DNA from: Candidatus Phycosocius spiralis
GTDB lineage: Bacteria; Pseudomonadota; Alphaproteobacteria; Caulobacterales; Aquidulcibacteraceae
DNA length: 64,000 bases
Direction: 5' to 3'
Assembly: GCF_030158815.1 (NCBI RefSeq)
Contig: NZ_BPFZ01000011.1
Location: forward strand, 1 to 64,000
Part shown: in pieces, positions 1,292 to 54,198 of the stretch
How the letters are laid out: each line of letters opens with the position of its first letter
How positions within the stretch are numbered: position 1 is the first letter of the stretch
The notes under the pieces: generated by a model
The model's database searches: none
Told to the model about the DNA's origin: nothing
The model's input: only the letters and a program-made list of their open reading frames with translations
Made by a program: the position numbers and the translations under genes

Positions 1292-1490
1292 TTCAAGCTC
1301 CTTAGACAAAGCTAGATCGCCTTGACGGCACTTGCTTAGCCTTAGCGACGGGGTAGAATGTAAAAACTTCTAAAGATTATATCTTTAGATGACAACAACC
1401 ATCAACCAAACGCAGCACGACTATGAGGTGGACCCCGTTTGAACCGCACTGGATTTGCCGGAGGCTCTAAAACCTGAGAAGGGTAGAGCC

Positions 1491-37093: not shown

Positions 37094-39892
37094 TTAAACT
37101 GCAAACTGCATAAATTGCTCACGAATAAGGGTTTGCGCATCGTCCAGTTTGGCCTGAACGGTGGTAAAGTCTGGCGCATCCAAACAGCGGGCGATGGCGC
37201 GCTTTAATCCTGAACCTGCCCGGTCGGCATCAAAATTTGGCCCGGCTGCAACCGCCAGAATCTGACGGACATCATGGAGGACACGTCCCGCTAGGATCAA
37301 GCGCCCAGCCGTTTCAAAAGCCAATACACCAAATTCTGCCAGCGCATGGAGCGCTTCAATCGTATTGGCACGAACACAATTATGACCTCGTGAGGCCCCT
37401 AAAAGCTGATAATATTGGCTTAAAAACTCAAGATCAATCAAACCACCCGACTGGCGTTTGATATCCCATCGCCCGCGAACAGGATGTGCCAAAGCCATTT
37501 TTTTGCGCATCGCAACAATATCGGCCCGTATTGTCCCTAACTCGCGCGGCACTGACAATACCTGCGCCTTCATGTCCATTATTTCAGAGATCAATTCAAG
37601 GTCCCCCGCAACAGGGCGCAACCGGGTAAGCGCTTGAAGCTCCCACGTCCAAGCCTGGTCACGGTAATAATGCTTCAAAGCTGAAAACTGCACGGCAACA
37701 GGGCCAGCCCGACCAGATGGACGCAATTGCATATCCACATCATAGAGACTGCCTTCTGCGGTTTGAACCGAAAGCGCCGATACCAACCTTTGGGTAAAAC
37801 GGGTGTGCCATTGCTCAGCACTGATTGGGCGCTCACCGTCGGATTCTTGCAACTCATCATCCACGTCATAGACAATCATAAGATCTAAATCCGAGTCTGC
37901 CGCTAATTCCTGTCCACCTAGTTTACCCCAAGCACACACCGCAAAGCGCCCATGAATACGGCCATGGATAGGTACCAAAGACTCTGTTGCAACAGGAATG
38001 AGGGATTGAATAGTCGCCTCAGCTAATTTGGAATAAGCCCGCCCCGCTTGATCGGCTCTGGCGCGTCCGTGTAAGACCTGAAAACCGATGCGGAACAATT
38101 CTTCACGGTGGCAACGCCGAACGATATCCAAACTGTGTTCAAATTGATCGGGATGGATCACCATATCTGCCATGATATTGTGGTCAATTTCAGAGGTGTC
38201 TGGGGCTAAGGGTGCCAAAAAATGGGGCGAAAGCATCGCATCTAATATCGCAGGTCGTTGTGCCAAGACCGTGCCTAATCGCGGGGCAAGTGCCAAGGTT
38301 GCACAGGTCTCCTTTAAAATCTTCGGTTCTGCTTTAAATAAAGACAGGATTTGGACGCCTGCTGGAAGGGCCGCAAAAAAATCTTGAAACCGAGCAAAGC
38401 CAATCTCAGGTTCCCCAGTAGCTGCTATGGCTTGGAGAAGTTCTGGCGTGAGGGCGGTTAAAAGCTCACGCGCGCGCGCAGTTCGGGTAGCTGGAATATG
38501 GCCATGGTGCCAAGCGCGAATAGTCTTGGCGATGGAAGATGGCTCGCTAAACCCTAAGGATGCGATAGTTTCTAAGGTTTCAAGATCATCTTCAACGCCG
38601 GTAAACACCAATGATCCCAATGGGCTTGATAGGGGCTTGCTCTCGGGAAAGAGCTCTCGCACACGGGTGCGGACCATGTCCCGACAGGCGCGGATATCGC
38701 GGTCCAAGGCGGCCAGATTTTCGTGCCCTGACAAAACCGCCACGCGCGCGCGCCTAGATGGGTCTGATGGCAGTTGATGGGTTTGCTCATCGTCTAGCAT
38801 TTGAATGCGATGCTCTATCGCGCGTAAAAACCGATATCCATGCGCCAAATCATCGCGCGCAGGGGCATCAATTCTCCCGGCATCCACCAGTGCATCCAAT
38901 GCATCCAACGTGCCGCGTAGCCGCAGGCTGGCATCACGGCCGCCCAAAATCAATTGCTGGGTTTGGGCAAAAAACTCAATCTCACGGATCCCGCCGCGCC
39001 CTAGTTTCACATCAAAAGCTGGATCATCTGAATCTTTGGAGCGGTGCACAGCATGAATTTGCCGCAAAATGGATTGCACATCATCAATGGCCGCAAAATC
39101 AAGGTTCTTGCGCCAAATAAAGGGTCGTAAATGATCGAGAAATGATGCCGCAATGGTCAAATCACCACCTATTGCGCGGGCCTTGATAAAGGCTGCCCGT
39201 TCCCAATTTTGTCCTACACTCTCATAATAGGCTTCAGCAGCGCGAAGCGAAACAGCAACGGGCGTGGATGCGGGATCAGGCCTTAACCGCCAATCCACCC
39301 GAAAGACATAACCATCAGGTGTTACCTCTTCAAGAATGCGCGAAACCGCTTGAACATGACGCACGCATAGACCGCTCGCATTGTCGCGGGCTTCTTCTTC
39401 AAAAGCGTCACGATCGTAAAATGCCGCCAAGTCAATATCGCTGGAATAATTGAGCTCTCCTGCCCCATGCTTGCCCATCGCCAGGATAAACAGACCTGGA
39501 ACGAGGGCCTGCCCTCCCATGAGTGCCTTATCGCGTGATTGCGCCGTGCGACACGCCAATCCCATGGCGCTACAGGTAGCGATATCGGCCAAGCTGGACA
39601 AATAATGGGTGACATCTTGTAAGCCAAGTTCACCACTTAAATCCCCAAGCGCGCATCCCAAATGCGTATCAGCTTTGGCCTGGCGCAATGCCGCCATTGC
39701 CTCGTGCAATCCAAGCTGATCTGCCGCCGCGGCGTGTGCAAAGGCATTGAGAAAGCCATCACACAGCGAACCATGCACAAAGCCTTGAAAAGCATCTGCA
39801 CGTCTTTGACACAGTCGTTCCAAATAAGGTGAAACGCTCCGCGCCACGGCCATGGACTCGGGCTTGGGTCCTAGGGGCTTGATGGCAATCAT
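37094..39892 (-). CDS. glnE: Glutamine synthetase adenylyltransferase/deadenylyltransferase
   Basis: A bifunctional cytoplasmic enzyme that adds or removes AMP on glutamine synthetase under PII control. The 932 residues cover both nucleotidyltransferase domains. The first has LFILAMGKHGAGELNYSSDI followed by DLAAFYD near residue 150. The second has FAVCAWGKLGGQELAADSDL and DLMIVYD near 660. Each carries the GS-DxD catalytic pattern. Its start overlaps the upstream histidine kinase stop by 4 bp. This is the last gene of the long minus-strand series. Confidence 0.96.
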   Translation of the reverse strand: MIAIKPLGPKPESMAVARSVSPYLERLCQRRADAFQGFVHGSLCDGFLNAFAHAAAADQLGLHEAMAALRQAKADTHLGCALGDLSGELGLQDVTHYLSSLADIATCSAMGLACRTAQSRDKALMGGQALVPGLFILAMGKHGAGELNYSSDIDLAAFYDRDAFEEEARDNASGLCVRHVQAVSRILEEVTPDGYVFRVDWRLRPDPASTPVAVSLRAAEAYYESVGQNWERAAFIKARAIGGDLTIAASFLDHLRPFIWRKNLDFAAIDDVQSILRQIHAVHRSKDSDDPAFDVKLGRGGIREIEFFAQTQQLILGGRDASLRLRGTLDALDALVDAGRIDAPARDDLAHGYRFLRAIEHRIQMLDDEQTHQLPSDPSRRARVAVLSGHENLAALDRDIRACRDMVRTRVRELFPESKPLSSPLGSLVFTGVEDDLETLETIASLGFSEPSSIAKTIRAWHHGHIPATRTARARELLTALTPELLQAIAATGEPEIGFARFQDFFAALPAGVQILSLFKAEPKILKETCATLALAPRLGTVLAQRPAILDAMLSPHFLAPLAPDTSEIDHNIMADMVIHPDQFEHSLDIVRRCHREELFRIGFQVLHGRARADQAGRAYSKLAEATIQSLIPVATESLVPIHGRIHGRFAVCAWGKLGGQELAADSDLDLMIVYDVDDELQESDGERPISAEQWHTRFTQRLVSALSVQTAEGSLYDVDMQLRPSGRAGPVAVQFSALKHYYRDQAWTWELQALTRLRPVAGDLELISEIMDMKAQVLSVPRELGTIRADIVAMRKKMALAHPVRGRWDIKRQSGGLIDLEFLSQYYQLLGASRGHNCVRANTIEALHALAEFGVLAFETAGRLILAGRVLHDVRQILAVAAGPNFDADRAGSGLKRAIARCLDAPDFTTVQAKLDDAQTLIREQFMQFAV

Positions 39893-41355
39893 GGTGTCAT
39901 CATCGGTAAAATCAGACGTGCTAGAAGGCCAAAGCCATCGCCATGTTCATGGGTCAAGCCATCCGATAGCACCAATCGCCCACCGTGTAATTCAGCGATC
40001 GCCACGGCCAAAGAAAGCCCAATGCCAGAACCAGGCAGTGACCGTGCATTATCCAAGCGGGCAAAACGCTTCACAACATAATCGCGCTTTTCCAGCGGTA
40101 TGCCGCGCCCACTATCGCTGATGCTGATCTCGACCTGGTTGGCGGGAAGGTGCTTTGCATGAAGTTGTATTTCACCACATTGGGTATATTTCACCGCATT
40201 ATCCAACAAATTTGAGATGGCTTGGGCCAACAATGAGCGGTCGGCCAAGATCATCAGACCCGGTTGGATATTAGGCGTAAACACCAAGCCCGCTTCTTCA
40301 ATCACAGGCTCAAACAATTCAGCCAATTGGGTAACCAAAACACTGACGTCGAGCGCTTCAAGCTTGCCGCCTTCGCCCGCCTCTAAGCGTGACAAGCGTA
40401 ACACTGCATTAAAGGTTGCCACTACATCATCCAATTGACTGATCGCATCTTCAATGACCTCTCTTAATTCGTCCAGTGTTTGGTCTCTGAGGGCACTATC
40501 TTCAAGGCGGGTGCGCAAGCGCGTTAGGGGGGAACGCAAATCATGGGCGATGGCATCCCCCGTTGTGCGCGCAGCAGCGACCAAGCGATCAATGCGCTCT
40601 AGCATGGCATTCAAGTCTTCGGTCAGATCGTCAAACTCATCGCCCTCACCGGGTGCGAGGGTACGCACTGCAGCCCGCCGCTTAAGGTCGCCTGCCATCA
40701 CCGCGCGGGTGGTCATGGTTAATTCATGCACACGTCCAGCAACTTGGCGGGCCACCAAAAATCCACCGATCAAGGCAAAAGCTAAGACCCCAGCGCCGCC
40801 CATCCAAATCACCCGCGCCACCTGATCGGCAATCTGTAGCCCAGGCCCTAAGTCGCGCGCAACAAATAGTCCAAATCCGTCTGGCCCCGCCAAAAAGAAG
40901 CCACGGGCGCGCCTACGTTCCAAGCGCCCAGTTTCAGGCACGGGTCGTTCATAGCTAAAGCCCGTTGCCACGGCTGCATTGGGGTTTAGGGGCGCATCCG
41001 CATCGGGACGGCGTACCTGTGAGAGATCTAAGGGTGCGCTATCGATATTGCCCGAAAGGACGCGACCATCGGGCTTGACCAAGACATAAAGCGATTCACT
41101 GGCTTGTGCGGCACGTTGAATGACAGCCATATTGAGGCCATTGATCGATTGCTGCTCCCAGATATTACTCAGCTCAATCAGCTCCTTTCGGGCATAACGG
41201 TCTGCCTCCAAGCCAAGGCGGCCGACTGTAGTCGCATACAAAAATCCAAGCAAAAGCAAAGCAAAACCAGCAAACAAACCTGCAAATGCTATGGCCACGC
41301 GTAATGTTGTCGTCCGCATCAGCGAACCAAATGGCGTGAGCAGCTTTGTGATCAT
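39889..41355 (-). CDS. HAMP-containing sensor histidine kinase
   Basis: A 488-residue membrane kinase. There are two hydrophobic segments, near residues 20-42 (FAGLFAGFALLLLGFLYATT) and 190-215, with a sensor region between them. A HAMP linker (VAGRVHELTMTTRAVMAGDL) follows. The H-box is AIAHDLRSPLTRLRTRLEDS near residue 270. The ATPase domain has NLLDNAVKY, DSGRGIP and GSGIGLSLAVAIAELHGG. It pairs with the OmpR-type regulator ending 5 bp upstream and overlaps glnE. The signal is unknown. Position after degP suggests envelope stress. Confidence 0.9.
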   Translation of the reverse strand: MITKLLTPFGSLMRTTTLRVAIAFAGLFAGFALLLLGFLYATTVGRLGLEADRYARKELIELSNIWEQQSINGLNMAVIQRAAQASESLYVLVKPDGRVLSGNIDSAPLDLSQVRRPDADAPLNPNAAVATGFSYERPVPETGRLERRRARGFFLAGPDGFGLFVARDLGPGLQIADQVARVIWMGGAGVLAFALIGGFLVARQVAGRVHELTMTTRAVMAGDLKRRAAVRTLAPGEGDEFDDLTEDLNAMLERIDRLVAAARTTGDAIAHDLRSPLTRLRTRLEDSALRDQTLDELREVIEDAISQLDDVVATFNAVLRLSRLEAGEGGKLEALDVSVLVTQLAELFEPVIEEAGLVFTPNIQPGLMILADRSLLAQAISNLLDNAVKYTQCGEIQLHAKHLPANQVEISISDSGRGIPLEKRDYVVKRFARLDNARSLPGSGIGLSLAVAIAELHGGRLVLSDGLTHEHGDGFGLLARLILPMMTP

Positions 41356-41360
41356 AGGCG

Positions 41361-42032
41361 CTATGCCTCTAGCCGATATCCGGCACCTCGCACCGTATGA
41401 AGCATCGGCTTGTCAAAATCTCGATCAATTTTGGAGCGCAAACGCGATACATGTACGTCGATCACATTGGTTTGGGGATCAAAATGATAATCCCACACCT
41501 TCTCCAGCAACATCGTGCGTGTCACCACTTGGTTGGCGTTACGCATGAGATATTCCAGTAGTCGGAACTCACGCGGCTGAATATCAATCTTCTTACCCTC
41601 GCGGCGAACAACGCGGGCGAGAAGGTCCATTTCAAGCTCACCTACTTTTAAATGAGTTGAAGGTGATCCACCCTCTTGGCGGCGACCTAAAGCTTCAACG
41701 CGGGCGATCAACTCACTCGCCGCATAAGGCTTTGCAAGATAATCATCCCCACCGGCATTAAGGCCCTCAACCCGATGTTCAACATCGCCTAAGGCCGACA
41801 GAAACAAAACCGGCGTGACAATTCCCGCAGTGCGCAAATCAGCAACCACACTCAGGCCATCCTTTTTGGGCAGCATACGGTCAAACACAAGCACATCAAA
41901 CGCCCCACCTCTGGCCATCATCTCGCCGGTTTCACCGTCTCCCGCTAGATCGACGACATGACCCGATTCTTCTAAGGCCCGGCGCATATATAGTGCGCTT
42001 TCGCCAGCATCTTCCACAATCAGGACGCGCAT
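41361..42032 (-). CDS. OmpR-family response regulator
   Basis: A 223-residue two-domain regulator. The receiver has the acidic pair ED at 7-8, phospho-acceptor Asp51 in VLVFDRMLPKKDG, and Lys in LAKPYAASEL. The winged-helix DNA-binding domain runs from about 128 (LKVGELEMDLLARVVRREGK) to VHVSRLRSKID and VRGAGYRLEA. It lies 24 bp after degP and 5 bp before its kinase, all in one direction. Confidence 0.93.
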   Translation of the reverse strand: MRVLIVEDAGESALYMRRALEESGHVVDLAGDGETGEMMARGGAFDVLVFDRMLPKKDGLSVVADLRTAGIVTPVLFLSALGDVEHRVEGLNAGGDDYLAKPYAASELIARVEALGRRQEGGSPSTHLKVGELEMDLLARVVRREGKKIDIQPREFRLLEYLMRNANQVVTRTMLLEKVWDYHFDPQTNVIDVHVSRLRSKIDRDFDKPMLHTVRGAGYRLEA

Positions 42033-42056: not shown

Positions 42057-43697
42057 TTATTTTTTCGGCCTAGACGGGGCGTCTGATTCCTCTGCATCCA
42101 AAGGCAAAGCGACAAAGCCGCCGCCACCGGCTTGGCTTTGGATAAACAATCCAATGAAAGCACGTCCCGCTGCTCGGGCTGCTTTTACCGCTGCTTCTAG
42201 CTCTTCCGAAGAGCGCACTTCTTTATCATTAGCCGTCAAAATAGCGTCCCCAGCGCGGATACCCCGCTTGGCAGCTTTGGAGTCTGGATCAACCTCTAAG
42301 ATCAAGACGCCGGCTTCATTTGGCGGAAGGCGAAGGCGGGTGCGCGCTTGGGCTGACAATGGCCCAACACTTAAACCCAGCGCACTCGAAGCTGCCGCTG
42401 CTGATGGCGGTACCCCATCAGGGCCGGTAGCATCACCACGGGCGAGTTGTTGTTCAGACGGTCTCGCAGCAATGGTAACTGAAACCGTGCGGCGGCTACC
42501 ATCAGCACCAGCAATTTCAAGCTTGACCACTTCACCAACATTGGTTTGTCCGACGCGTCGGGTCAAATCGCTGGACCCTTCGATCTTTTGACCATTGAAC
42601 TTTAGCACAACATCACCGCGCTTAAGACCAGCTTTTGCCGCTGGCGCACCTGGGGATACATTGGCAATCAACGCGCCTTTGGCGTCAGCCCCCAAGCCAA
42701 AACTATCGGCCATTTCACGGCTAACATCTTGGATCGTGACCCCAAGCCAGCCATAGGTCACTTTGCCTTGGGCAATAATCTGTTTGGTTGTACGGTCAGC
42801 CAAACTTGCAGGAATGGCAAAACCAATCCCAATATTACCGCCAGAGCGCGTGAAAATCGCGGTATTCACCCCGATAACCCGGCCACTCATATCAAAAGTC
42901 GGCCCACCGGAATTGCCCGGATTGATTGGCGCGTCAATTTGCATAAAGTCCGCAATATTGCTTTCACCACGGAAATCGCGGCCTAATGCCGAAATGATCC
43001 CGGCAGTGGCGGTACCACCCAAATCAAACGGATTACCGATTGCAACCACCCAATCGCCAACGCGAACTTTTGCTTCAGGCGCAAATTGAACATAGGGGAA
43101 GCTACCCCCTTCAACTTTTAAGACCGCCAAATCGGTACGCTCATCGCGACCAATGATCTTGGCTTTAAGTTCGCGACCATCTTTGAGGGTGGCTGTAATT
43201 TCTTTGGCTTTTTCAACCACGTGATTATTGGTGACGATATAGCCCGTTGAAGAGATGAAAAAGCCTGAGCCACCGCCTATCTGTTCGCGCGGCCTCGCTT
43301 GCTGACCATCGCGTTGATTGGGCATTTGCTCAAAAAAGCGACGTAATTGTGGGGGCAATCCTTCCAAATCTTCCATGGATGGCCCACCAGATGGAGCTTC
43401 AGATACTGCAACCACTTCTAAAGACACCACGGCGGGGGACACACGCTCTACCAAATCGGCAAAGCTGGGCAACATTGTTGCGGCCTTGGGAGCTTGAGTT
43501 GAAATTTGTTGCGCTGAAATCTCGCCCGGCGAAAGAACCTGTCCCACCCCAAAGGCCCCAATAGCCAAAGCAATAGCGGCTGCACCAGTCAGAATGGGAC
43601 GACGCATAAAAGGTCTTGCCACACTTTGTGGCGTCACTTGTTGCGAGTTGGGTTGAGAGCTTGGGGCAAACTTATCACTTTGAGTGTCCAACGACAT
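42057..43697 (-). CDS. degP: Do-family periplasmic serine protease (DegP/HtrA)
   Basis: An envelope quality-control protease and chaperone. I choose the ATG at 43697 (AGGATGAAG upstream); the frame is open to 43799. A membrane/signal segment follows (AAAIALAIGAFGVGQVLS). The catalytic triad is visible: His in YIVTNNHVVEKA, Asp in ERTDLAVLKVEGG, Ser in INPGNSGGPTFDMSGRVIG. Two PDZ domains follow (GLKRGDVVLKFNGQKIEGS and AKRGIRAGDAILTANDKEV). It ends in Gly- and acid-rich sequence. It lies between ccmH and a two-component pair on one strand. Confidence 0.94.
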   Translation of the reverse strand: MSLDTQSDKFAPSSQPNSQQVTPQSVARPFMRRPILTGAAAIALAIGAFGVGQVLSPGEISAQQISTQAPKAATMLPSFADLVERVSPAVVSLEVVAVSEAPSGGPSMEDLEGLPPQLRRFFEQMPNQRDGQQARPREQIGGGSGFFISSTGYIVTNNHVVEKAKEITATLKDGRELKAKIIGRDERTDLAVLKVEGGSFPYVQFAPEAKVRVGDWVVAIGNPFDLGGTATAGIISALGRDFRGESNIADFMQIDAPINPGNSGGPTFDMSGRVIGVNTAIFTRSGGNIGIGFAIPASLADRTTKQIIAQGKVTYGWLGVTIQDVSREMADSFGLGADAKGALIANVSPGAPAAKAGLKRGDVVLKFNGQKIEGSSDLTRRVGQTNVGEVVKLEIAGADGSRRTVSVTIAARPSEQQLARGDATGPDGVPPSAAAASSALGLSVGPLSAQARTRLRLPPNEAGVLILEVDPDSKAAKRGIRAGDAILTANDKEVRSSEELEAAVKAARAAGRAFIGLFIQSQAGGGGFVALPLDAEESDAPSRPKK

Positions 43698-43841
43698 GAA
43701 CTTCATCCTGCGCCTACAAAGGCCCGACCTTCGAGCCTTATTGGATGTAGTATGACATCTCAAACATGGCCAGACCATGACTAAAACATTACAATTCATT
43801 TAGAGTAAAGTTGGTGTGAAAAAATCTAATTGGACCATATT

Positions 43842-44351
43842 TTAATCATTTAAATCAGATAATTGATACTCTTTCAGTGCAGCACGCACCTCATCGTCTT
43901 GAAGCTCTGGCGCAATTTCGGGGCCAATTTCTTTGCGGCGGCTAACCCAATAAAGGCCAGCTCCGCCCATTAGCAATAAGGCCAAGGGCGTGCCCCATAG
44001 CGCCAAGGTGTCGAGGCCAAGACGGGGACGCAACAGAACAAACTCGCCATAACGTTCGGCAAAGAAACGCCGTACCTGCGCGTCACTATCTCCAGCGGTA
44101 ATCCGTTCGCGAATGGCTTTACGCATATCCAAAGCGATTTGAGCCGATGACAAAGCGACTGGTTCATTCTCGCACACAACACAGCGGATTTCGCGCGCTA
44201 AATTCTGGGCACGCGCTTCTTGGTTCGGATCGCTCAACGCCTGTTCGGGTGTGACAAGCGATCCCTGTGCGGCAAAAACGGGGGCGGCAAGCAAAGTGAC
44301 AAAGCTTAGGGCCCAAAGGATCATCCACTGTGTCAAACGCCGCACTATCAT
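43842..44351 (-). CDS. ccmH: Cytochrome c maturation protein CcmH (CycL)
   Basis: A 169-residue membrane-anchored thiol oxidoreductase that prepares apocytochrome c for heme ligation with CcmF. A signal peptide (MILWALSFVTLLAAPVFAA) precedes the redox motif IRCVVCENEPVA with Cys57 and Cys60, and the family helix AQIALDMRKAIRERI. FFAERYGEFVLLRPRLG and a C-terminal membrane helix (TPLALLLMGGAGLYWVSRRK) complete it. It overlaps ccmF by 4 bp. Confidence 0.94.
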   Translation of the reverse strand: MIVRRLTQWMILWALSFVTLLAAPVFAAQGSLVTPEQALSDPNQEARAQNLAREIRCVVCENEPVALSSAQIALDMRKAIRERITAGDSDAQVRRFFAERYGEFVLLRPRLGLDTLALWGTPLALLLMGGAGLYWVSRRKEIGPEIAPELQDDEVRAALKEYQLSDLND

Positions 44352-46381
44352 GGGGTACTGGTTCCTGCTCCCTGCAAACCAAAATCAGCCTTTGGCTCTG
44401 GAGAGATCTTGGCACCCTTAAGCCGCGCGGGCTGGGGTGCCCCCACGCGCAAACGACGATCCGTTAAGCTAACAGCACCCCCAAGTGCCATTAAAAACGC
44501 GCCACCGAAAATACCAATCACCAGTGGGTTCGAATATAAGCGCACCGTCCAAGCCATTCGGCCAGAGATTTGGGAAGGGTCACCCAAAGCCGCATAGACA
44601 TCCCCACCCAGGGATGAACGGATTGCTACCTCCGTGGTTGGCATCCGCGAAGCAGGGTAAAATCGCCTTTCGGGCGTTAAGGTGAATTCGCGCGTACCCC
44701 TTGTTACCACCAAAAGTGCCCTGTCCGCATAATAATTGGGGCCTTCTTCGGCCGTTACGCTTTTGAGCGTTACACTTGATCCTGCAAATTGGGTGGTTTC
44801 GCCAAGACCTAAAGAAGCGGTGTGCTCTTGGCGGAATGCTGTTTCAGAAACAGCACCTAAGACAAAAACGCCCAAGCCCATATGCGCGATGGTCATGCCC
44901 CATGCGGCGCGTTGCACCCCTTTAAGCCGCGACCAAACCTGCGGCCAAGCCAACTTGCCAAACTTGGCGCGGTCTAGAACTTCTGAAATCGCGCCACACA
45001 CAAGCCACGCCCCAAGTCCAATCCCAATGGCGGCTAAAGCTTTGCCCCCCATGAGAGCCCAGGTCAGCGTCATCGCTAAGGCGGCACAAGCCCCTGCGAC
45101 CCATAGGCGCTGTAAAGCCCCCGCTAAGTCACCGCGCTTCCACGCCAAGAAAGGGGCTATGGGCAATACGATCAGGACCAGTGCCATCAAGGGCGTGAAG
45201 GCAAGATTGAAATAGGGCGGGCCAACCGATAGCGCGCGCTTAAACACTGCCTCCCCCAACAAGGGATAAAGTGTTCCGACTAAAACAGTCGCGGTTGCGA
45301 CCGTCAAAAACAGATTATTGACGACCAAAGCGCCCTCTCGGCTGATCGGCGCGAATAACCCCCGATCCGAACCAAGGCTTGGACCCCGCCAAGCAAAGAG
45401 TGCTAACGCTCCCCCAGTAAAAGCCGCCAAAATCATCAAGATCATAAATCCACGCTTGGGGTCGAGGGCAAAAGCGTGCACGGAGGTCAACACACCTGAG
45501 CGCACCAAGAAGGTTCCAAGTAGGGACAAGGAAAATGTCAAAATCGCCAGTAAAATCGTCCAGCTGGCTAGACCCCCGCGCTTTTCAGTTACAATGGCGG
45601 AGTGCAATAAGGCGGCCCCCAAGAGCCAAGGCATAAAGCTTGCATTCTCAACCGGGTCCCAGAACCACCACCCACCCCAGCCCAGTTCATAATAGGCCCA
45701 ATAAGAACCAAGGGTGATGCCGATGGTCAAAAACGTCCAAGAAGCCAGCGCCCACGGTCGCACCCACCGCGCCCAGGCCGCGTCCACGCGGCCCTCGAGC
45801 AAGGCCGCAACGGCCAATGAAAACACCACCGAAGAACCGACATAGCCCAGATATAAAAAAGGTGGGTGAGCGGCCAATGCGGGGTCTTGGAGCAAGGGGT
45901 TTAAGCTAGCGCCTTGTAAGGGTGCTGGATCAAGACGCACAAACGGATTGGAGGCAAAAGCCAGATAGGCCATCATCACCGCCGTCAAAAGGCCTTGAAC
46001 CCCAACCGCGCGGGCACGCAAATCCCAGCGCAGTCCTTTAGAAAACCGGGCCAACATCCAGCCAAAGCCTGCGGAGATCAAACACCACAATACCATAGAG
46101 CCTTCATGACTGCCCCAAGTTCCAGCGATCTTATAGAGGAGTGGCTTTAGAGTGTGGCTGTTGGTTGCCACATTTTGCACCGAAAAATCAGAGCGGATGA
46201 AGGCACTCATCAAGGCAAGAAATGCTAAAGCGATGGCCAAAGCGGATACATCCGCCGATGCCCGTGCCATGGCAGCGAAGCGACCGTCATGCGCGTGCCC
46301 GCCCCACAGGCCTGATCCAGTTTGGGCAAGGCTGGCTGCAAGGGCTAAAAAGATGAGGAAGTGTCCGAGTTCAGCGATCAT
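44348..46381 (-). CDS. ccmF: Cytochrome c heme lyase subunit CcmF (CycK)
   Basis: A large polytopic inner-membrane protein (677 residues, about 15 hydrophobic segments) that attaches heme to apocytochrome c. The heme-handling tryptophan motif is GWGGWWFWDPVENASFMPWL. Other family marks are GTWGSHEGSMVLWCLI and LLGTFLVRSGVLTSVHAFA. It lies 79 bp after ccmE and overlaps ccmH by 4 bp in the ccmI-E-F-H operon. The ccmABCDG genes are not in the window. Confidence 0.96.
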   Translation of the reverse strand: MIAELGHFLIFLALAASLAQTGSGLWGGHAHDGRFAAMARASADVSALAIALAFLALMSAFIRSDFSVQNVATNSHTLKPLLYKIAGTWGSHEGSMVLWCLISAGFGWMLARFSKGLRWDLRARAVGVQGLLTAVMMAYLAFASNPFVRLDPAPLQGASLNPLLQDPALAAHPPFLYLGYVGSSVVFSLAVAALLEGRVDAAWARWVRPWALASWTFLTIGITLGSYWAYYELGWGGWWFWDPVENASFMPWLLGAALLHSAIVTEKRGGLASWTILLAILTFSLSLLGTFLVRSGVLTSVHAFALDPKRGFMILMILAAFTGGALALFAWRGPSLGSDRGLFAPISREGALVVNNLFLTVATATVLVGTLYPLLGEAVFKRALSVGPPYFNLAFTPLMALVLIVLPIAPFLAWKRGDLAGALQRLWVAGACAALAMTLTWALMGGKALAAIGIGLGAWLVCGAISEVLDRAKFGKLAWPQVWSRLKGVQRAAWGMTIAHMGLGVFVLGAVSETAFRQEHTASLGLGETTQFAGSSVTLKSVTAEEGPNYYADRALLVVTRGTREFTLTPERRFYPASRMPTTEVAIRSSLGGDVYAALGDPSQISGRMAWTVRLYSNPLVIGIFGGAFLMALGGAVSLTDRRLRVGAPQPARLKGAKISPEPKADFGLQGAGTSTP

Positions 46382-46460
46382 AAGCCATTATGTACCCCGC
46401 GCCCTGTGCGCTTCAACTGCTTTGGCTGTTGAATCCCGAGCAAACTGACCTGAAGTCCAC

Positions 46461-46997
46461 TCAGTTGGAGCCCGAATACAGCGTTCTAGATGGGACGTTG
46501 GTCGAGCCAGAGCTTATCGATGAAAGATCGCTGGTTTTTTGCCCAGCTTGGCTAACCGGCATGGGTGCCTCACGCCATTGACCCGAGGCTTTAAGCGCAT
46601 CGGCGACTTCCTTGGGCATGTAATTTTCATCATGGCGGGCTAGGATCGTGCGCGCCTCAAAAACATCATTGGATCGAAAACGACCTTCAGCGATCACGCC
46701 TTGGCCCTCGCGAAACAAATCGGGCAATACGCCGCGGTAGTTCACCCGCAAGTCTGCTGTGCCGTCTGTGACAACGAAATTGACCACACCGTTTTCGCTG
46801 CGCACCACCGTACCCTTTGCGACCAAGCCGCCGATGCGGGCCTGGGTGCCCGCTACGGGCTTTTTCTTCGCGGCATCAGCAGGCGAGAAAAAGAAAGACG
46901 CCGTATCCTTAAGCGCCAGACTAGCAACCGCCGTCGCGCCCAAAAGGACGACACCAGCAGCACAAATCAAAAGAAGGCGACGATCACGTCTGCGCAT
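46461..46997 (-). CDS. ccmE: Heme chaperone CcmE (CycJ)
   Basis: A periplasmic heme carrier anchored by one N-terminal helix. From the ATG at 46997 it begins MRRRDRRLLLICAAGVVLLG. The OB-fold shows RIGGLVAKGTVV, NYRGVLPDLFREGQGVIAEG and ARHDENYMPKEV, with His122 as the covalent heme site and the downstream Tyr. A GTG at 47075 overlapping the ccmI stop is in frame, giving 26 extra residues; the shorter start fits the family better. A Ser-rich C-terminal tail follows the fold. Confidence 0.93.
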   Translation of the reverse strand: MRRRDRRLLLICAAGVVLLGATAVASLALKDTASFFFSPADAAKKKPVAGTQARIGGLVAKGTVVRSENGVVNFVVTDGTADLRVNYRGVLPDLFREGQGVIAEGRFRSNDVFEARTILARHDENYMPKEVADALKASGQWREAPMPVSQAGQKTSDLSSISSGSTNVPSRTLYSGSN

Positions 46998-47071
46998 AGG
47001 GGACACTCTCGGTTTATAACACCTTACTGTCTGGCGCTTTGAATGGAAAGCAATCTTTCGCTCACAAAAAC

Positions 47072-48262
47072 TCACCTTTTCGGCATTGGTGTTAATGGAG
47101 CAGAAGCAACATCGCCAATGCTTGCTAAGCAGGTTTGATACAGCGCCTTTAAAAATGGGTCCTTTTGGGCAATTGTTTCACCGGCTTGAAGCATTGACTT
47201 GGCGGCGTTCACTTGCCCGGTCATCATCAGTACGCGCGCCGCAGAAAGGCGTAAGGACGGGTTTGCAGGATCGCTTGTTACGCGGGCGACGCGGGCCGCT
47301 ACCATTGCTTTAATGAAGGCTTGTTGTGCTTTTGGGTCAGCACCCATCATAGCATTTTTGGGCGTTTGAGACCCGTCCATGTCCGGACCACGGTCTAATT
47401 GGGACAAGACATCGATAGCCCGCGCCACTAAAAGATTTTGATTATTGGTTTGGCCAGCATTGCTCTCATAGGCACGACGCCAAATGGCTAGCCCATCCTT
47501 GTAGTTGCCGGCGTGCCATCGGGCAAGACCCAAATAGAAAGCCGCAGACGGTGAATTTGGATCAAGGCTCAGGGCCGCTTCTAAAGCTCTTTGAGCATCT
47601 GGTCCAAGTTGGTTGTCATTTAGCCGCATTAAAACGCCACCTGTTTCAGCAATCCATTCAGGATTGGTTGGGTTGCGTCGCAATGCTGCTTGATAGGCGC
47701 GAAGCGCATCTTGATCACGGCCAGAGCTGACCATAACTTGTGCCATTAAAGCGTGCGGCAATGCATCTTCGGGGTTTTTCTTGGCTTGCTCTTGCAATAA
47801 GAGCAAAATTTCCTCTTCGCTTAAGGTTTCAGGGGCTCGGGCTAAAAGCTGGGCTTGACGGACAGAAAAAGGCTGATCAGGAAGATTTGGTGATCCAAAT
47901 ACTACATAAAGTCCGCCCGCTAACACAGCTGTGACAAGGGCTACTGCGCTCACCAAAGCGCGATTCAGGACGATACCTTCCCCAATGATGCGGTCACGGG
48001 CAATGATCAAACGGCGACCAATTTCCAAACGACCCGCTTGTGCAGCCTCCATCGATATTCTGCCTTGGTTAACATCACGATCCAGCTCCTGGAGTTGGTC
48101 CTGATAGACAAGAAGGTCTGGGCGGTCGGTTTCGTCTTGTCTGATTTTGGCACCAGCCCTCAAGATCCACCAAGCAGCGCCCGTTAAAATCATCAACACT
48201 GTGGCCCAGAACGTTGCCGGCAGTACAAGTGGCGCAATAGAACTCAAATTAAGGGCAGACAT
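47072..48262 (-). CDS. ccmI: Cytochrome c biogenesis TPR protein CcmI (CycH)
   Basis: CcmI binds the tails of apocytochromes c and hands them to the CcmF-CcmH lyase. Two membrane helices lie near residues 12-35 and 95-115 (LVSAVALVTAVLAGGLYVVF), separated by a cytoplasmic leucine-rich loop (DLLVYQDQLQELDRDVNQGR). Periplasmic TPR repeats follow (YQAALRRNPTNPEWIAETGG, ALEAALSLDPNSPSAAFYLG). The 396 residues fit the family. It is the first gene of the ccm operon and overlaps ccmE. Confidence 0.92.
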   Translation of the reverse strand: MSALNLSSIAPLVLPATFWATVLMILTGAAWWILRAGAKIRQDETDRPDLLVYQDQLQELDRDVNQGRISMEAAQAGRLEIGRRLIIARDRIIGEGIVLNRALVSAVALVTAVLAGGLYVVFGSPNLPDQPFSVRQAQLLARAPETLSEEEILLLLQEQAKKNPEDALPHALMAQVMVSSGRDQDALRAYQAALRRNPTNPEWIAETGGVLMRLNDNQLGPDAQRALEAALSLDPNSPSAAFYLGLARWHAGNYKDGLAIWRRAYESNAGQTNNQNLLVARAIDVLSQLDRGPDMDGSQTPKNAMMGADPKAQQAFIKAMVAARVARVTSDPANPSLRLSAARVLMMTGQVNAAKSMLQAGETIAQKDPFLKALYQTCLASIGDVASAPLTPMPKR

Positions 48263-48356: not shown

Positions 48357-49793
48357 TTACACCCCTTTTGGTACCATTTTAGTGGCCTTGATCTGTTTGG
48401 ACTTCAAGGCCGCAATTCTGCGCTCAAAACCAGTTGCAGCTCGGTTACCATCCAAAGCAGAATAGAGCAGGGTTGTAGCCCAGATATAGTCATCTAAATA
48501 GCGTGAAGGATTGTTTTCATAGACTAATTGCACCAAGGCATCGGCAGTAAAATCTAGATAATCAGCGCAGGACTTTATAACTTTTTGACTTACCACAGCA
48601 ATTCCAGCTTCGTTGGCTAAATGGCGGATTGCGGACAAAAACTCCAAATAAGACCGTGCGACTTGTACGGCTTCTGAATCAATTTTCACCGATACGCGAG
48701 GCAGAATGGTCGTCGCGATTTTACCCTTGCGTACCGATTCACGGGGCAACACCTGCTCTAAGGCTGTGACAGCACCCTCACAGATATCTTCTAATATTTG
48801 ACCTGTACGTGAGCATATCTCGGTCAATTCCTGCTGCCAAGGTCCTAAGTAATTAAGTAATTGACTTTTTGAAAGTCCGTTGGCCAAAAGAATATGTCGA
48901 TTTAGGGCATTGATCATACGCTGGGCGTTAAAGATGGTTTTGTTATATTCTTCCCAGATCAGCTGGCTTTGCTGATGGATTAGACCCAAAATCCGCCGTC
49001 CAATCAACCCATAAGGGGTTGTGTCTATCTTGATATCATCGAAAGTGGGTAATAGTTTTTTTACCACGCGCAAGATGTGAAAAGGCTTGTCCAAGGTCGA
49101 CATATTAAGCAGCATAAGTTCAACGCCCACCTTGATATCATGCGCTTCTTGTTTGCGGACACATTTAGTGAGATGCATGATTGAGTTTTCATGCATATCA
49201 CCATATCGGCTTTGTGAACCTGTCCATAATTCATTGTTGAGCTTATTGGCCAAAAGCAATGGACGTAAACGATCGAGGATCAGGCTGCTTTCAGGGGTAT
49301 CTCCTAGAATAGCTAATTGCTCATCTGACACATCAGAAATGCGTTCAAGGACCACATCGCGATAGCCATTTGCAAGATTTTGTGCCCCCTTCACATCACC
49401 CTTAAGACTGGCATCGCGGATCAAGGGATCTAATTCGGTAAAAACATCATTGGCCAATTGCGTCGATATGACATGCCAAACTTGCGCCAACCCTTGGCGC
49501 GGCAGAGATCCTGGTACAAGGTTGCTGAGTTCTTGACTTGCAAATAAACCTGAAAAGGGCTCCCAGAACAAACGGTCAAATCCAGGAATACGGCTTTTCC
49601 CAACGCCATCAAGGAAATTCGGGATTATTCCAGCCTGACGTAGCGTTTCCAATAAATCTATGATGGCATTAGGGCGGTTTCCCTCAAGTTTGACGCGCTC
49701 TAATAATGACCACACTTCATGAGAATTTGCATGCGTAGTAGCAAGGACAATTGTCCTTAAAGCGGCAATCTGTTCATCGGTTAAAACTTTCAT
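48357..49793 (-). CDS. Unrecognised 478-residue, mainly helical protein
   Basis: A long open frame with ATG start MKVLTDEQIAALRTIVLATT and no signal peptide or membrane segment, so probably cytoplasmic. Composition suggests alpha-helical repeats (RVVKKLLPTFDD, LNRHILLANGLSKSQLLNYL, YLEFLSAIRHLANEAGIAVV). It has few cysteines and a basic C-terminus (RRIAALKSKQIKATKMVPKG). I know no family that fits. It lies between the FeuQ-like kinase gene and ccmI, all on one strand, with gaps of about 140 and 95 bp. Its codon usage does not look obviously foreign. The frame is long and clean, so it is a real gene; its function is open. Confidence 0.8.
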   Translation of the reverse strand: MKVLTDEQIAALRTIVLATTHANSHEVWSLLERVKLEGNRPNAIIDLLETLRQAGIIPNFLDGVGKSRIPGFDRLFWEPFSGLFASQELSNLVPGSLPRQGLAQVWHVISTQLANDVFTELDPLIRDASLKGDVKGAQNLANGYRDVVLERISDVSDEQLAILGDTPESSLILDRLRPLLLANKLNNELWTGSQSRYGDMHENSIMHLTKCVRKQEAHDIKVGVELMLLNMSTLDKPFHILRVVKKLLPTFDDIKIDTTPYGLIGRRILGLIHQQSQLIWEEYNKTIFNAQRMINALNRHILLANGLSKSQLLNYLGPWQQELTEICSRTGQILEDICEGAVTALEQVLPRESVRKGKIATTILPRVSVKIDSEAVQVARSYLEFLSAIRHLANEAGIAVVSQKVIKSCADYLDFTADALVQLVYENNPSRYLDDYIWATTLLYSALDGNRAATGFERRIAALKSKQIKATKMVPKGV

Positions 49794-49931: not shown

Positions 49932-51314
49932 CTAAACTTTTTCTGCAGCAGGTATTAAGAGTTGTGCCTTTAATCCGCCATAAGAAGATCGACCCAAAAT
50001 GAGGCTGCCACCATAGACACGCACGAGATCATCGCTAATAGACAGGCCCAAACCCGATCCCGGCAAGGATTCATCTATCCGCGCGCCGCGTTTTCGGGCT
50101 GAGAGCAAAGCAAGGTCATCAAGCCCTTGGCCATCATCTTCAATGGCAATTTCAATATGTGTGTTAGAGGCAGCTCTGGCCCTGATTTCAACCAATCCAC
50201 CGCCATATTTACATGCATTTTCAGCCAGATTGCCAATCATATCCTCCAAATCCTCTCTCTCACCACGAAAAATCAAATGATTATCGTAGGAACATGACAC
50301 TTTGACCCCATCCATAGCGAATAAGCGGCGCAGAGTTTTGCACATATCTTCCAAGACTGGACCAATTGGCGTCCGGGTACCTAAGGTTTCTGCCCGAGCT
50401 GCCGCTGTTGCCCGCTTGAGATAATGCTCAACCTGGCGGGACATGGTTTCACATTGTCTGGCTACTAGATCTTCAAAATCGCCGCTTTTATGGCGCGCCT
50501 CGGTGAGCATCACGGATAAGGGGGTTTTGAGTGCATGGGCAAGATTGCCTACATGGGTTCGCGCGCGTTCAACCACTTCTTGGTTGTGGGTCAAAAGCGC
50601 ATTGAGTTCGCTTGCCAATGGGGCTAATTCACGAGGTACGTCTTCGTCCAAGCGTTCTAAACAGCCAGCGCGGATTTTCCCCAATTGGCGTCCCATCTGA
50701 CGCAAGGGCTCTAGGCCCAGTTGAACTTGCAAGAAAATCGCACCCAACAATCCAAGCGCCAAGGCGATCAATCCTAGAGTCAAAATCAACGCAAATCGTG
50801 CAGCAGCATCGACAGCTTCTTGGGTATCGGCCCCGACCATGATCAATGTGGGATATCGTCGGTTTGGTAATTGCACCAATCGACCCGCAATGCGCAACTT
50901 CTCTCCTGCCCTCACGATATCAACGCTTTGAGTCGATCCTGGTGCCGCACGCACCTGATTGAGGAGGTCGGCGCTGGGAATAAAAGGTCTATCCCAAACC
51001 GACCTAGAGGTGACGCCCACCTTTTGAATAAGCAAAGGACCTTCGACATCTACTACGCGCCAATAATGGCCTGATAGGGGTTTAACAAAACGGGGATCGG
51101 TTGGTGGACGCTTTATACGCAACTGACCCGCTTGATCGGTTTCAACACTTGCCGCCAAAGCATCAATGGAGACGGCCAATTCCTGGTCAAAAGCTTCAAA
51201 CACCGTTGTGCGAAACAAAGCGGTCAGGCCATATCCTGTCCCTACCAACACAAAGGCAGACCAAATCGCGGCAACCCCGACCAAACGCCCAGCTAAAGAG
51301 GAAGATCGTTTCAC
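49932..51314 (-). CDS. feuQ: Sensor histidine kinase, FeuQ/PhoQ-like
   Basis: A 460-residue membrane kinase with GTG start at 51314. There are helices near residues 8-32 and 175-195 (LILTLGLIALALGLLGAIFL), with a periplasmic sensor between. The dimerisation box is HVGNLAHALKTPLSVMLTEA near residue 258. The ATPase domain shows NLAENACKYGGG, EDDGQGLDDLALL and GSGLGLSISDDLVRVYGGSL. It follows the response regulator by 5 bp. PepSY protein, regulator and kinase in this order beside ccmIEFH match the rhizobial feuNPQ-cycHJKL neighbourhood; the exact orthology is inferred. Confidence 0.8.
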   Translation of the reverse strand: MKRSSSLAGRLVGVAAIWSAFVLVGTGYGLTALFRTTVFEAFDQELAVSIDALAASVETDQAGQLRIKRPPTDPRFVKPLSGHYWRVVDVEGPLLIQKVGVTSRSVWDRPFIPSADLLNQVRAAPGSTQSVDIVRAGEKLRIAGRLVQLPNRRYPTLIMVGADTQEAVDAAARFALILTLGLIALALGLLGAIFLQVQLGLEPLRQMGRQLGKIRAGCLERLDEDVPRELAPLASELNALLTHNQEVVERARTHVGNLAHALKTPLSVMLTEARHKSGDFEDLVARQCETMSRQVEHYLKRATAAARAETLGTRTPIGPVLEDMCKTLRRLFAMDGVKVSCSYDNHLIFRGEREDLEDMIGNLAENACKYGGGLVEIRARAASNTHIEIAIEDDGQGLDDLALLSARKRGARIDESLPGSGLGLSISDDLVRVYGGSLILGRSSYGGLKAQLLIPAAEKV

Positions 51315-51319
51315 CCGCC

Positions 51320-51997
51320 TTACACACCTAGCGGAGCATCAGGGTCGAGCAATTGATAGCCAAGCCCGCGCACTGTAGAGATTCTGTCTTGACCGATCTT
51401 TTTTCTAAGTCGGCCCACAAACACTTCAATTGTATTGGAATCACGATCAAAATCTTGATCATAAATATGCTCAATCAGCTCAGAACGGGGAATTACCCGC
51501 CCTGCATGATGCATCAGATAGGTCAAAAGGCGCAATTCATGACTTGTAAGCTTAACCGGGTTGCCATCCACAGTCGCGCGTTGTGCGCGTGAATCAAGGC
51601 GAAGCGCGCCGCATTCTAAAGCGGGTGTCGCGTGGCCAGCGGCGCGGCGAACCAAAGCGCGCAAGCGCGCCAATAGTTCTTCCATATGGAAGGGCTTGGT
51701 CACATAATCGTCGGCCCCGGCGTCAAAGCCTGCGACCTTCTCACTCCAGCGATCCCGCGCGGTCAAGATTAAAACAGGGACCAACTTACCCGCCTTTCGC
51801 CAGCGCTCTAAAATGGTCACCCCATCCACCACGGGCAAACCAAGGTCTAAGATTATAGCGTCATAAGGTTCTGTATCCCCTAGAAAATGTCCTTCCTCGC
51901 CATCGCTTGCGACATCAACAGCATACCCCGCATCAAGGAGGGCGCGCTCTAGCTGGCGGCGCAAATCAGGATCATCCTCAACAACTAAACAGCGCAT
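51320..51997 (-). CDS. feuP: OmpR-family response regulator, FeuP/PhoP-like
   Basis: From the ATG at 51997 (MRCLVVEDDPDLRRQ) it has about 225 residues. Asp51 in AIILDLGLPVVDG is the phospho-acceptor and VTKPFHMEELLARL holds the conserved Lys. The winged helix ends VFVGRLRKKIGQ and VRGLGYQLLDP. The open frame extends upstream to 52066 but the shorter start fits the family. It lies between a PepSY protein and its kinase. FeuP regulates iron uptake or cyclic glucan export in rhizobia; the target here is unknown. Confidence 0.8.
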   Translation of the reverse strand: MRCLVVEDDPDLRRQLERALLDAGYAVDVASDGEEGHFLGDTEPYDAIILDLGLPVVDGVTILERWRKAGKLVPVLILTARDRWSEKVAGFDAGADDYVTKPFHMEELLARLRALVRRAAGHATPALECGALRLDSRAQRATVDGNPVKLTSHELRLLTYLMHHAGRVIPRSELIEHIYDQDFDRDSNTIEVFVGRLRKKIGQDRISTVRGLGYQLLDPDAPLGV

Positions 51998-52025
51998 ATG
52001 CAATGTCCTTTTTTTGGGCTCCAGA

Positions 52026-52328
52026 TCATCCCTGTCGTCCCACGATCTGGCCAGTTTGAGCGTCAACTTTGAAGATTATGATCCGCCCACGCGAAGCCTG
52101 CCAGCGCACAATATAATAGGGATGGCCGTTTTCACTGATCAGACTGGTATCCAATTGCGTACCAGGCTCAATATCATTGATCCGATCTAGCACCTGCGAC
52201 AACGGCACCGTTTGACTAACCCGCACGAACAGGCCAGCTGCGGGCCCACGATTGGCTTCAGCGTGCCGGGAACTTACGCTTGCCCCAAGCAAAGCCATAA
52301 AGATCAAAAGTGCCATTGAGGGTTTCAT
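52026..52328 (-). CDS. Exported PepSY-domain protein (FeuN-like position)
   Basis: From the ATG at 52328 it starts MKPSMALLIFMALLGASVSS with a cleavable signal, then a compact PepSY-like domain: LSQVLDRINDIEPGTQLDTS, GHPYYIVRWQASRGRIIIFK, VDAQTGQIVG. About 100 residues in all. The frame is open to 52448, with an alternative ATG at 52391. It lies just upstream of the two-component genes. In rhizobia the equivalent small periplasmic protein, FeuN, restrains the FeuQ kinase, so a similar role is inferred. Confidence 0.72.
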   Translation of the reverse strand: MKPSMALLIFMALLGASVSSRHAEANRGPAAGLFVRVSQTVPLSQVLDRINDIEPGTQLDTSLISENGHPYYIVRWQASRGRIIIFKVDAQTGQIVGRQG

Positions 52329-52492
52329 AGCGCCTAAACTAATAGGAAGTTGCTGAACCTGGTCTAAACGCCTTTGTTTATTGTCCTGCATCGTTTCAAG
52401 CCACCCTGATCGAAATGAGACGCAAAACAAGTATATATGACAAATCAATAGATCGCATCATTTGAAAGGCTGTCTTTGGCGCAAAATGCGAA

Positions 52493-53238: not shown

Positions 53239-54198
53239 CTAACGTTTAGGAGGATCATCTCGGCGGTCCCAATTGGTCAGAACTTCCTTTAAGCTAGCAT
53301 TATTCCCTTCAGGCAAAGCGATGATTAAACGAATAAATAAATCGCCCGGTGTTCCGGGTCGCGCGACCCCTTTACCCTTGAGCCGCAATACTGTCCCAGA
53401 GTTTGATCCAGCGGGAATGTTTAGCGCGACTGTTCCATTGGGTATGGTGGCTTCGATGCGGCCCCCATTTAGCACCTCCTGCAAGGATACAGGCAAATCC
53501 ATTCGTACATCATCACCGTCACGATGAAATACCGAGTGGGGAGTGACGTTAATCGTGACCATTACGTCGCCAGCGGGCATACCACCACGCCCCGGCCCAC
53601 CTTGGCCACGCAACCGTAAAGTCCGCCCTGTTTCAACCCCAGCAGGGATCGCAACCTCAATGCTGCGGTCACCAATTTTGACGCGCTGTTTGGCACCAGA
53701 AATCGCATCCTCAAAACTGATTTGCAGGGTCGCATGAAGATCTTGGCCCTTAGCGCCTGCTTGAAAGCCAGGTTTTGGCCCGCCGCGTGACCCAAAGGCA
53801 GCCCCGAATAAATCCCCAAACATATCTTCAAAATCGACTGCGCCAGGGCCACTCCCGCGTTGGTGCGCCCCACCAGCACCAAAAAACCCACCAGGTCCAA
53901 ATGGATCGCCGCCACCAAATGGCCCGCGTCCCCCGCCGCCAAAACCAGCAAATTTTGGATTAGCGTCCGCGTCAATTTCACCGCGGTCATAACTGGCTTT
54001 ACGGTCGGGATCATCGAGAAAATTAAAAGCGGCGGAGACGCGCTTAAACCGCTCTTCAGCAGCTTTATTATTGGGGTTGGCGTCAGGATGCAGCTGTTTG
54101 GCGAGCTTACGATACGCTTTACGAACGTCTGCAAACGGCGCGCCGCGCGCGACGCCCAATACGGAATAAGGATCCTCGGCCACGCATTGATCTCCCAC
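53239..54198 (-). CDS. DnaJ-family co-chaperone (CbpA-like)
   Basis: A 319-residue J-protein. The J domain occupies residues 9-75 with YSVLGVARGA and the HPD triad at 37-39 (KQLHPDANPNNKAAEERF). A Gly/Phe-rich linker follows (GGGGRGPFGGGDPFGPGGFF). Two C-terminal substrate-binding domains complete it (QISFEDAISGAKQRVKIGDR, VFHRDGDDVRMDLPVSLQEV). The Cys-rich zinc domain of full DnaJ is absent, as in CbpA. It starts with GTG at 54198, or possibly at 54183. It lies beside the GTA cluster, about 125 bp from the g15 end. Confidence 0.9.
   Translation of the reverse strand: MGDQCVAEDPYSVLGVARGAPFADVRKAYRKLAKQLHPDANPNNKAAEERFKRVSAAFNFLDDPDRKASYDRGEIDADANPKFAGFGGGGRGPFGGGDPFGPGGFFGAGGAHQRGSGPGAVDFEDMFGDLFGAAFGSRGGPKPGFQAGAKGQDLHATLQISFEDAISGAKQRVKIGDRSIEVAIPAGVETGRTLRLRGQGGPGRGGMPAGDVMVTINVTPHSVFHRDGDDVRMDLPVSLQEVLNGGRIEATIPNGTVALNIPAGSNSGTVLRLKGKGVARPGTPGDLFIRLIIALPEGNNASLKEVLTNWDRRDDPPKR

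Follow-up and report, generated by a model that had tools for sequence, protein, structure and literature searches.

The cytochrome c maturation (ccm) genes cycHJKL and the genes feuPQ are, to go by the title of a 1997 paper cited in PMC11103875, reportedly both required for iron uptake in R. leguminosarum. FeuP and FeuQ constitute a two-component system which is usually activated under osmotic stress, and in which FeuQ is restrained from the periplasm by FeuN (PMC12486126). FeuN resembles the protein described here in being encoded together with feuP and feuQ, and a FeuN-like PepSY gene is part of the cluster analyzed below. However, FeuN is small, periplasmic (PMC12486126) and encoded upstream of feuP, whereas the protein described here is 478 amino acids long and predicted to be soluble and helical; its gene lies downstream of feuQ and is retained where FeuQ is missing.

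In the present study, we analyzed this gene, hereafter X, in a 64,000-nucleotide stretch of DNA (the window) from Candidatus Phycosocius spiralis. The cluster comprises the following features, listed in coordinate order:

42057..43799, minus strand: DegP-type protease, which closes the ancestral cluster (Trypsin_2, PDZ)
43842..47075, minus strand: ccmE, ccmF and ccmH (Pfam CcmE, CcmF_C, CcmH)
47072..48262, minus strand: CcmI, 94 bases downstream of X (TPR over cut-off; CcmH/CycH TPR model 41.6 versus 42, just under; gene order)
48357..49793, minus strand: X, 478-residue protein, predicted soluble and helical, of an unnamed alphaproteobacterial family (open reading frame, homology, model, tree)
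49932..51314, minus strand: sensor histidine kinase resembling FeuQ, upstream of X with a gap of 138 bases (Pfam 2CSK_N, HATPase_c), a partner kept in gene order
51320..52066, minus strand: FeuP-like response regulator (Response_reg, Trans_reg_C)
52026..52448, minus strand: FeuN-like PepSY-domain protein with a putative start codon (PepSY E 8e-6; gene order)
53239..54198, minus strand: CbpA/DnaJ-like gene, which opens the cluster (DnaJ, DnaJ_C)

The names FeuN, FeuP, FeuQ and CbpA are tentative assignments from domains and gene order. An earlier note on this DNA had described X as a 478-residue helical open reading frame of no known family, flanked by feuQ-like and ccmI genes. This description stands: the coordinates hold, the model is helical, no relative was found in Pfam, NCBIfam, PADLOC, PHROGs or PDB sequences, and a 2CSK_N/HATPase_c kinase lies on one side and a TPR-containing CcmI on the other.

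X is a candidate missing piece of the FeuPQ envelope/osmotic-stress system, or else has a function of its own and is only encoded alongside. Our computations establish the family, its distribution, its usual place and its survival without FeuPQ; from these and from the model we infer an adaptor role, a cytoplasmic site and a link to the envelope. In the reading that we tentatively prefer, X would be an old, vertically inherited, soluble alpha-helical protein of the cytoplasm that binds other proteins, as an adaptor or scaffold, in the maintenance of the cell envelope. It would act next to FeuPQ and not through FeuPQ alone, and would be historically linked to this sensor pair while independent of it.

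X is an intact gene of a new, unnamed family

X is read from an ATG at position 49793 to a stop codon ending at 48357. Its frame is open over 486 codons from stop to stop, so that the start codon is nearly fixed, and this start matches that of genus relatives in the alignment (MKVLTDEQIAAL versus MTVLTDDKIAAL). Using a single-sequence search, we recovered X in 8 same-genus genomes, over 465-471 of its 478 residues and at 40-42% identity (E 1e-102 to 2e-111). Computed for seven pairs of closely related copies, dN/dS ranged from 0.02 to 0.10 (four Aquidulcibacter-type pairs with 0.02-0.04, L059/L061 with 0.10, L063/L064 with 0.06 and L065/L066 with 0.04), values which are rough given that several dS exceed 1, and which place X under purifying selection in the close relatives of the window's lineage. 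These full-length matches and the dN/dS of the relatives rule out a non-coding or chance open reading frame, and X is a genuine, intact coding gene.

The window copy has a near-neutral pI of 6.8 and a highest 19-residue Kyte-Doolittle mean of 1.02, that is, no hydrophobic segment, which suggests a soluble, cytoplasmic protein; stretches above 1.6 on the same measure occur in 5 of 39 FeuQ-linked copies. The family blocks RLFxxPFExL, KPW and GPW are present in the window copy at residues 74-84, 236-238 and 317-319, with F replacing W at 238. Together with the full-length match to other members, these three blocks place the window protein (P0001) in the X family; as P0001 belongs to profile A3, its own A3 score is circular.

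P0001 gave no match in Pfam, NCBIfam or PADLOC, and a best E of 0.095 in PHROGs, which was searched with P0001 only. Pfam searches with 15 members of profile A1 and 33 members of profile A3 yielded best E-values of 0.0098 and 0.0069, respectively, with at most 2 members matching any one Pfam family, and PDB sequence searches with the X profiles gave a best E of 0.44 for A1 and nothing up to E 5 for A3. Accordingly, neither by curated cut-off nor by a clear E-value does X fall into a family of Pfam, NCBIfam, PHROGs or PADLOC. All known-family candidates obtained with P0001, with profiles A1, A3 and A6 (the last for Y, a gene described below and searched in Pfam, NCBIfam and PADLOC), or with single members were chance-level matches. 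The family was not found in the published literature searched, which lay outside most subscription papers, nor did that search return a paper treating feuQ together with ccmI. X thus forms a new, unnamed family of an ordinary protein kind. Since neither X nor Y is represented in any library searched, many such genes are probably annotated 'hypothetical protein', as are three Azospirillum records with gene names.

X is old and widespread in alphaproteobacteria

The single-protein search matched X in 23 of 101 near genomes, the window's own included, and the best-matching named records belong to Aquidulcibacter, related MAGs and Ca. Phycosocius bacilliformis. A profile of 33 sequences, with Y-linked paralogues counted, matched 108 of the 200 genomes sampled from the order, 61 of 385 from the class and 18 of 299 in a phylum sample. 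All 18 belong to the same class or nearer, a restriction which applies to that sample, for which the share of genomes from outside the class is not given. Within the order, matches occur in families f1, f3, f4 and f5 (in f1 restricted to some genera), and full-length homology extends across many families of the class.

The same-genus, named-record and order-wide matches rule out a strain-specific orphan, and the 'lineage-specific' character proposed in the earlier note does not survive the counts for order and class. A mobile or phage gene was likewise rejected, as P0001 has no PHROG and no plasmid match and the X tree is largely grouped by family. The X family is old and widespread in alphaproteobacteria, and appears to be vertically inherited.

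X keeps its place behind feuQ

In 14 named-genome loci, which are largely the same genomes as those of the single-protein search, the gene order is cbpA, GATase, feuN, feuP, feuQ, X, ccmI, ccmE, ccmF, ccmH, degP, except where the contig stops (L062, L066) or where one of a few additional small genes intervenes. X follows FeuQ in all 14 of these loci as well as in further families, several in number, and the order feuN-feuP-feuQ-X-ccmI-ccmE-ccmF-ccmH-degP recurs in several families. As X occupies the same slot throughout, it is native to this neighbourhood and not, as had been supposed, inserted in this lineage into an otherwise conserved one.

We examined 84 X loci, selected for holding X and hence no random sample. 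A FeuQ-type kinase precedes X in the same orientation at 42 of these loci, so that X is encoded next to FeuQ as a FeuPQ accessory would be. The gap between the two genes, like all intergenic gaps here taken from the farthest possible start codon, is at most 250 bases in 31 loci, 251-1500 bases in 5 and larger in 6. In 37 of the 42 loci ccmI, ccmE or ccmF is visible downstream of X, with ccmI within 1 kb in 26. By coordinates, FeuQ lies within ~4.2 kb upstream of X in 22 of the 61 X genomes of the class sample. A scan for promoters and terminators gave counts no higher than those of shuffles.

A maximum likelihood tree was built from 83 X copies, leaving out 4 near-duplicate loci and hits of fewer than 250 residues. 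All 39 FeuQ-linked rows fall into one 49-row clade (support 99/98) that is largely grouped by family; the remaining 10 rows have no FeuQ in view, in at least one case (L071) because the contig ends. The window copy branches beside a group (99/92) that comprises Ca. P. bacilliformis and Aquidulcibacter-type genomes, inside a 100/100 node, and takes the same place in the neighbour-gene tree. Y-linked copies lie outside the FeuQ-linked clade, in several branches. Taken together, these results show that the linkage of X to the sensor pair FeuPQ is real and deep.

Beyond the cluster, a second pair of response regulator and histidine kinase genes follows degP in the window (39889-42032, minus strand). 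Relatives retain this pair in the same position, among them 6 of the 8 f5 loci without FeuPQ described below. Upstream of cbpA, a series of genes for head and tail proteins of phage type (54323-63784, minus strand; major head, head-tail adaptor, tail assembly and tail protein by PHROGs) presumably resembles a gene transfer agent cluster; relatives of the large tail gene in this series occur in 14 of 44 neighbourhood loci. Short open reading frames at 1455-2601 (plus strand) were recognised by eye as resembling pieces of an IS3-type transposase.

X occurs without FeuPQ and away from the ccm genes

In the 8 loci of family f5, which belongs to the same order, cbpA lies upstream of X in all 8 and degP downstream in 7, and feuPQ and ccm are absent between or beside X and these flanks. 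The kinase and regulator found after degP there represent the second, separate pair (85-114 and 196-208 bits), and two 20-bit CcmI matches in L177 were taken as TPR noise. When all candidates up to E 1e-30 were scored, FeuQ was not found in 7 of the 8 f5 genomes, while in the eighth (G854) a FeuQ of 356 bits is located on a contig other than that of X. CcmE, for which all candidates were also scored, is present in all 8 genomes away from X, on another contig in 7 and more than 300 kb off in G766. X has thus held its ancestral position in f5 although feuPQ was lost from it and ccm moved away. The f5 copies of X are long and much diverged (49-298 bits with the profile) and attach, on a quick tree, beside and not inside the FeuQ-linked clade with a support of 0.145; that they are orthologous is supported chiefly by the flanking genes in common, and their function may have changed. 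In a further family, f120, X lies at most 2.3 kb from ccmI in 3 of 3 genomes, and FeuQ was not found in any of these 3 genomes with X, two of which are only 83-87% complete. As X outlives FeuPQ in f5 and f120 and the adjoining ccm genes in f5, a strict dependence on either is unlikely.

In the class sample, 36 genomes contain both X and FeuQ, 25 only X, 57 only FeuQ and 267 neither. The 36 include genomes with Y-linked X, and 22 show both genes side by side. The resulting odds ratio is 6.7 (FeuQ in 36 of 61 X genomes versus 57 of 324 others), uncorrected for shared ancestry. X is missing from 57 of the 93 FeuQ genomes, and the FeuQ absences in this sample are soft, with at most 4 candidates scored per genome up to E 1e-80. 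Using the X profile with filters off and E-values up to 0.01, no diverged X was detected at 20 FeuQ loci without an adjoining X, of which 19 come from the 57 genomes mentioned and one from G186, which has a Y-linked X elsewhere. The gene directly after FeuQ is CcmI in 2 of these loci (L146, L158) and another gene in 17, while the contig ends in L165. Loss of X inside a kept cluster occurs, yet is the rarer picture.

These distributions bear on the possibility that FeuPQ has X as a third, cytoplasmic component, binding FeuQ or FeuP and tuning phosphotransfer. Such a component would parallel FeuN, which binds and restrains FeuQ on the periplasmic side (PMC12486126), and would fit both the odds ratio, uncorrected for relatedness as it is, and the standing of FeuQ as the most constant neighbour of X, in the 14 named-genome loci and 28 further ones. 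A FeuPQ accessory should, however, be absent when FeuPQ is absent, whereas X is kept without detectable FeuQ in 7 of 8 f5 and 3 of 3 f120 genomes, and more than half of the FeuQ genomes do without X. The gaps between feuQ and X, which range from 30 bases to 4 kb, moreover show no overlap of the kind seen in Y-X pairs. A rate covariation analysis aimed at a partnership with FeuQ versus Ccm (51 branches, 27 taxa) was of low power, the expected pair FeuP-FeuQ reaching only 0.05, which renders the value for X and FeuQ (r 0.08) uninformative. We therefore regard this third-component role as possible but rather unlikely.

A role in cytochrome c maturation, or in a haem/iron economy joining FeuPQ and CcmIEFH, appears very unlikely. 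The ccm genes downstream of X in most FeuQ-X loci, the retention of X near ccm in f120, where FeuQ is gone, and the tie of cycHJKL and feuPQ to iron uptake reported in the 1997 title are set against the position of CcmE away from X in all f5 genomes and against the X sequence, which contains neither a CXXC or CXXCH motif nor a hydrophobic segment and so has neither the membrane or periplasmic character nor the haem-handling motif of a Ccm protein. Pearson correlations of X with four Ccm proteins in the same low-power covariation test were all below 0.

Overall, the idea of the earlier note that X partners the sensor pair or the cytochrome pathway is weakened: linkage to the sensor pair is upheld by the 42 of 84 loci and the single clade, whereas an obligate tie to FeuPQ or ccm is contradicted by f5, f120 and the FeuQ genomes without X. 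With X as an independent adaptor or scaffold, as we prefer, the slot after feuQ would stem from joint expression or from co-operation with FeuPQ at times, without X depending strictly on it.

The window copy of X has changed rapidly

Compared with the Aquidulcibacter locus L054, the window copy of X shows 41% identity, while its neighbours show 56-86% (CcmI 56%, FeuN 60%, GATase 62%, CcmH 63%, FeuQ 71%, CcmE 77%, DegP 78%, CbpA 82%, FeuP 85% and CcmF 86%). The terminal branch of the window accounts for 4.7% of the X tree length versus 1.0-3.1% for six neighbour genes. Changes unique to the window outnumber those unique to L054 against each of four outgroups for X (79:21, 49:37, 49:28 and 55:27), and also for FeuQ (46:19, 31:22, 30:13 and 35:17) and CbpA (22:8, 16:12 and 22:7), whereas in the ccm genes the excess on the window side is smaller or absent. 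Of 49 X columns that are invariant in the other 14 sequences, 10 are changed in the window copy, the GC3 of which is 0.43. The assembly analyzed here comprises 2,502,038 bases in 48 contigs; the genome of Ca. Phycosocius spiralis is described (PMC10008586) as 2.5 Mb in 46 contigs and the smallest of its clade.

The longest relative branch among the seven genes, the low identity, the excess of unique changes, the altered columns, the GC3 and the reduced genome would all fit an X that is losing its role and drifting in the window's lineage. We consider such a loss unlikely: the 478 codons are open without a stop, 39 of the 49 columns are kept, and FeuQ and CbpA are accelerated in the same genome as well. 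The fast change of the window copy would fit either relaxed constraint or adaptation, in a genome that is reduced.

The structure of X is predicted to be helical

The model of full-length X (pLDDT 86, pTM 0.76) is mostly helical, with 22 helices at least 4 residues long and a single beta hairpin (351-365); residues 199-472 modelled alone reached a pLDDT of 93 and a pTM of 0.85. The structures matched by Foldseek with the two models are helical proteins, including designed toroids, armadillo and HEAT-like proteins and 14-3-3, and every match has an E above 0.001. The best E was 0.031 for the full model (VIA Z 8.8 over 75 residues) and 0.026 for residues 199-472 (VIA Z 9.8, rmsd 15.9 over 153 residues), Z values of 8.8-9.8 being within the range common for helical proteins. 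The local helix packing of the model may resemble that of alpha-solenoid and 14-3-3-type proteins; unlike these, X has no sequence match to them, exceeds E 0.001 in Foldseek and carries the hairpin at 351-365. X thus appears to be helical, possibly solenoid-like, with no significant structural match in these searches.

Of the checks proposed in the earlier note, family searches and structure prediction yielded no clear relative, and the linkage to feuPQ and ccmI was seen to span several families. Neither of the outcomes it had named as fatal, a known-family match or presence in a single strain, was found when looked for.

A paralogous branch of the X family is paired with Y

Directly upstream of an X paralogue, a second gene, Y, was identified in 27 pairs at 26 loci. 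In 10 of the 27 pairs the two genes overlap by 4 bases, an arrangement typical of coupled translation; some larger overlaps stem from over-long open reading frame starts. At L095, Y and X are fused in a single frame of 856 amino acids. The Y-branch X aligns with window X by hhalign over 431 columns (probability 99.8%, E 9e-30), a sequence likeness by which the Y-linked paralogues belong to the same family, and several copies of these occur in some genomes.

Y comprises ~375 amino acids with conserved RGxxVPFTTP and HDRAL blocks (for example L081:5499-6647, L097:8956-9780 and L122:8026-9153). There is no sign that it is a second copy of X (hhalign probability 0.3%), none of 26 Y members has a significant match in Pfam, and the Y profile (A6) gave weak helical-bundle matches in PDB, the best (E 0.0079) being a designed helical bundle. 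Among 20 genomes tested, Y was present in 3 picked for their Y-linked copies and absent in the 17 others, including the window's genome. Two Azospirillum plasmids carry Y-X pairs with both genes annotated as hypothetical proteins, and Y-branch X genes are located on large Azospirillum replicons. One of them, AZL_RS24745 ('hypothetical protein', plasmid pAB510c of Azospirillum sp. B510), matches the X profile at E 2e-28 but, unlike window X, directly follows Y (AZL_RS24750, E 1e-134 with the Y profile) and not a histidine kinase.

The helical model, the lack of an enzyme-family match and the partner gene and fusion in this sister branch are the reasons for which we propose that X may bind proteins. 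The adaptor reading is to be weighed against the weakness of its best structural matches (Foldseek E 0.026, VIA Z 9.8) and against the fact that all-helical proteins can be enzymes. It may be weakened further by the divergence of the f5 copies, where the function could have changed, by the fast and maybe relaxed window copy and by the 5 of 39 copies with a hydrophobic stretch. A more elaborate scheme, in which an undescribed alphaproteobacterial family of cytoplasmic helical adaptors comprises X in one branch and the Y-X pairs in the other, with X as an inner regulator of the FeuNPQ envelope-stress system and Y replacing the sensor in stand-alone modules, seems quite improbable.

Among 37 loci, no other conserved neighbour of the Y-X pairs is prominent; the next commonest clusters, ABC-transporter-like in 6 of 37 and LysR-like in 5 of 37, look incidental. 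In L108 and L111, two short frames side by side take the place of a whole Y, and a few Y-X pairs may thus be broken or misassembled. Finally, a diverged X copy in divergent orientation was observed at ~7575 in L132, beside genes that resemble, by eye, those for flagellar FlgE, FlgD and FliK.
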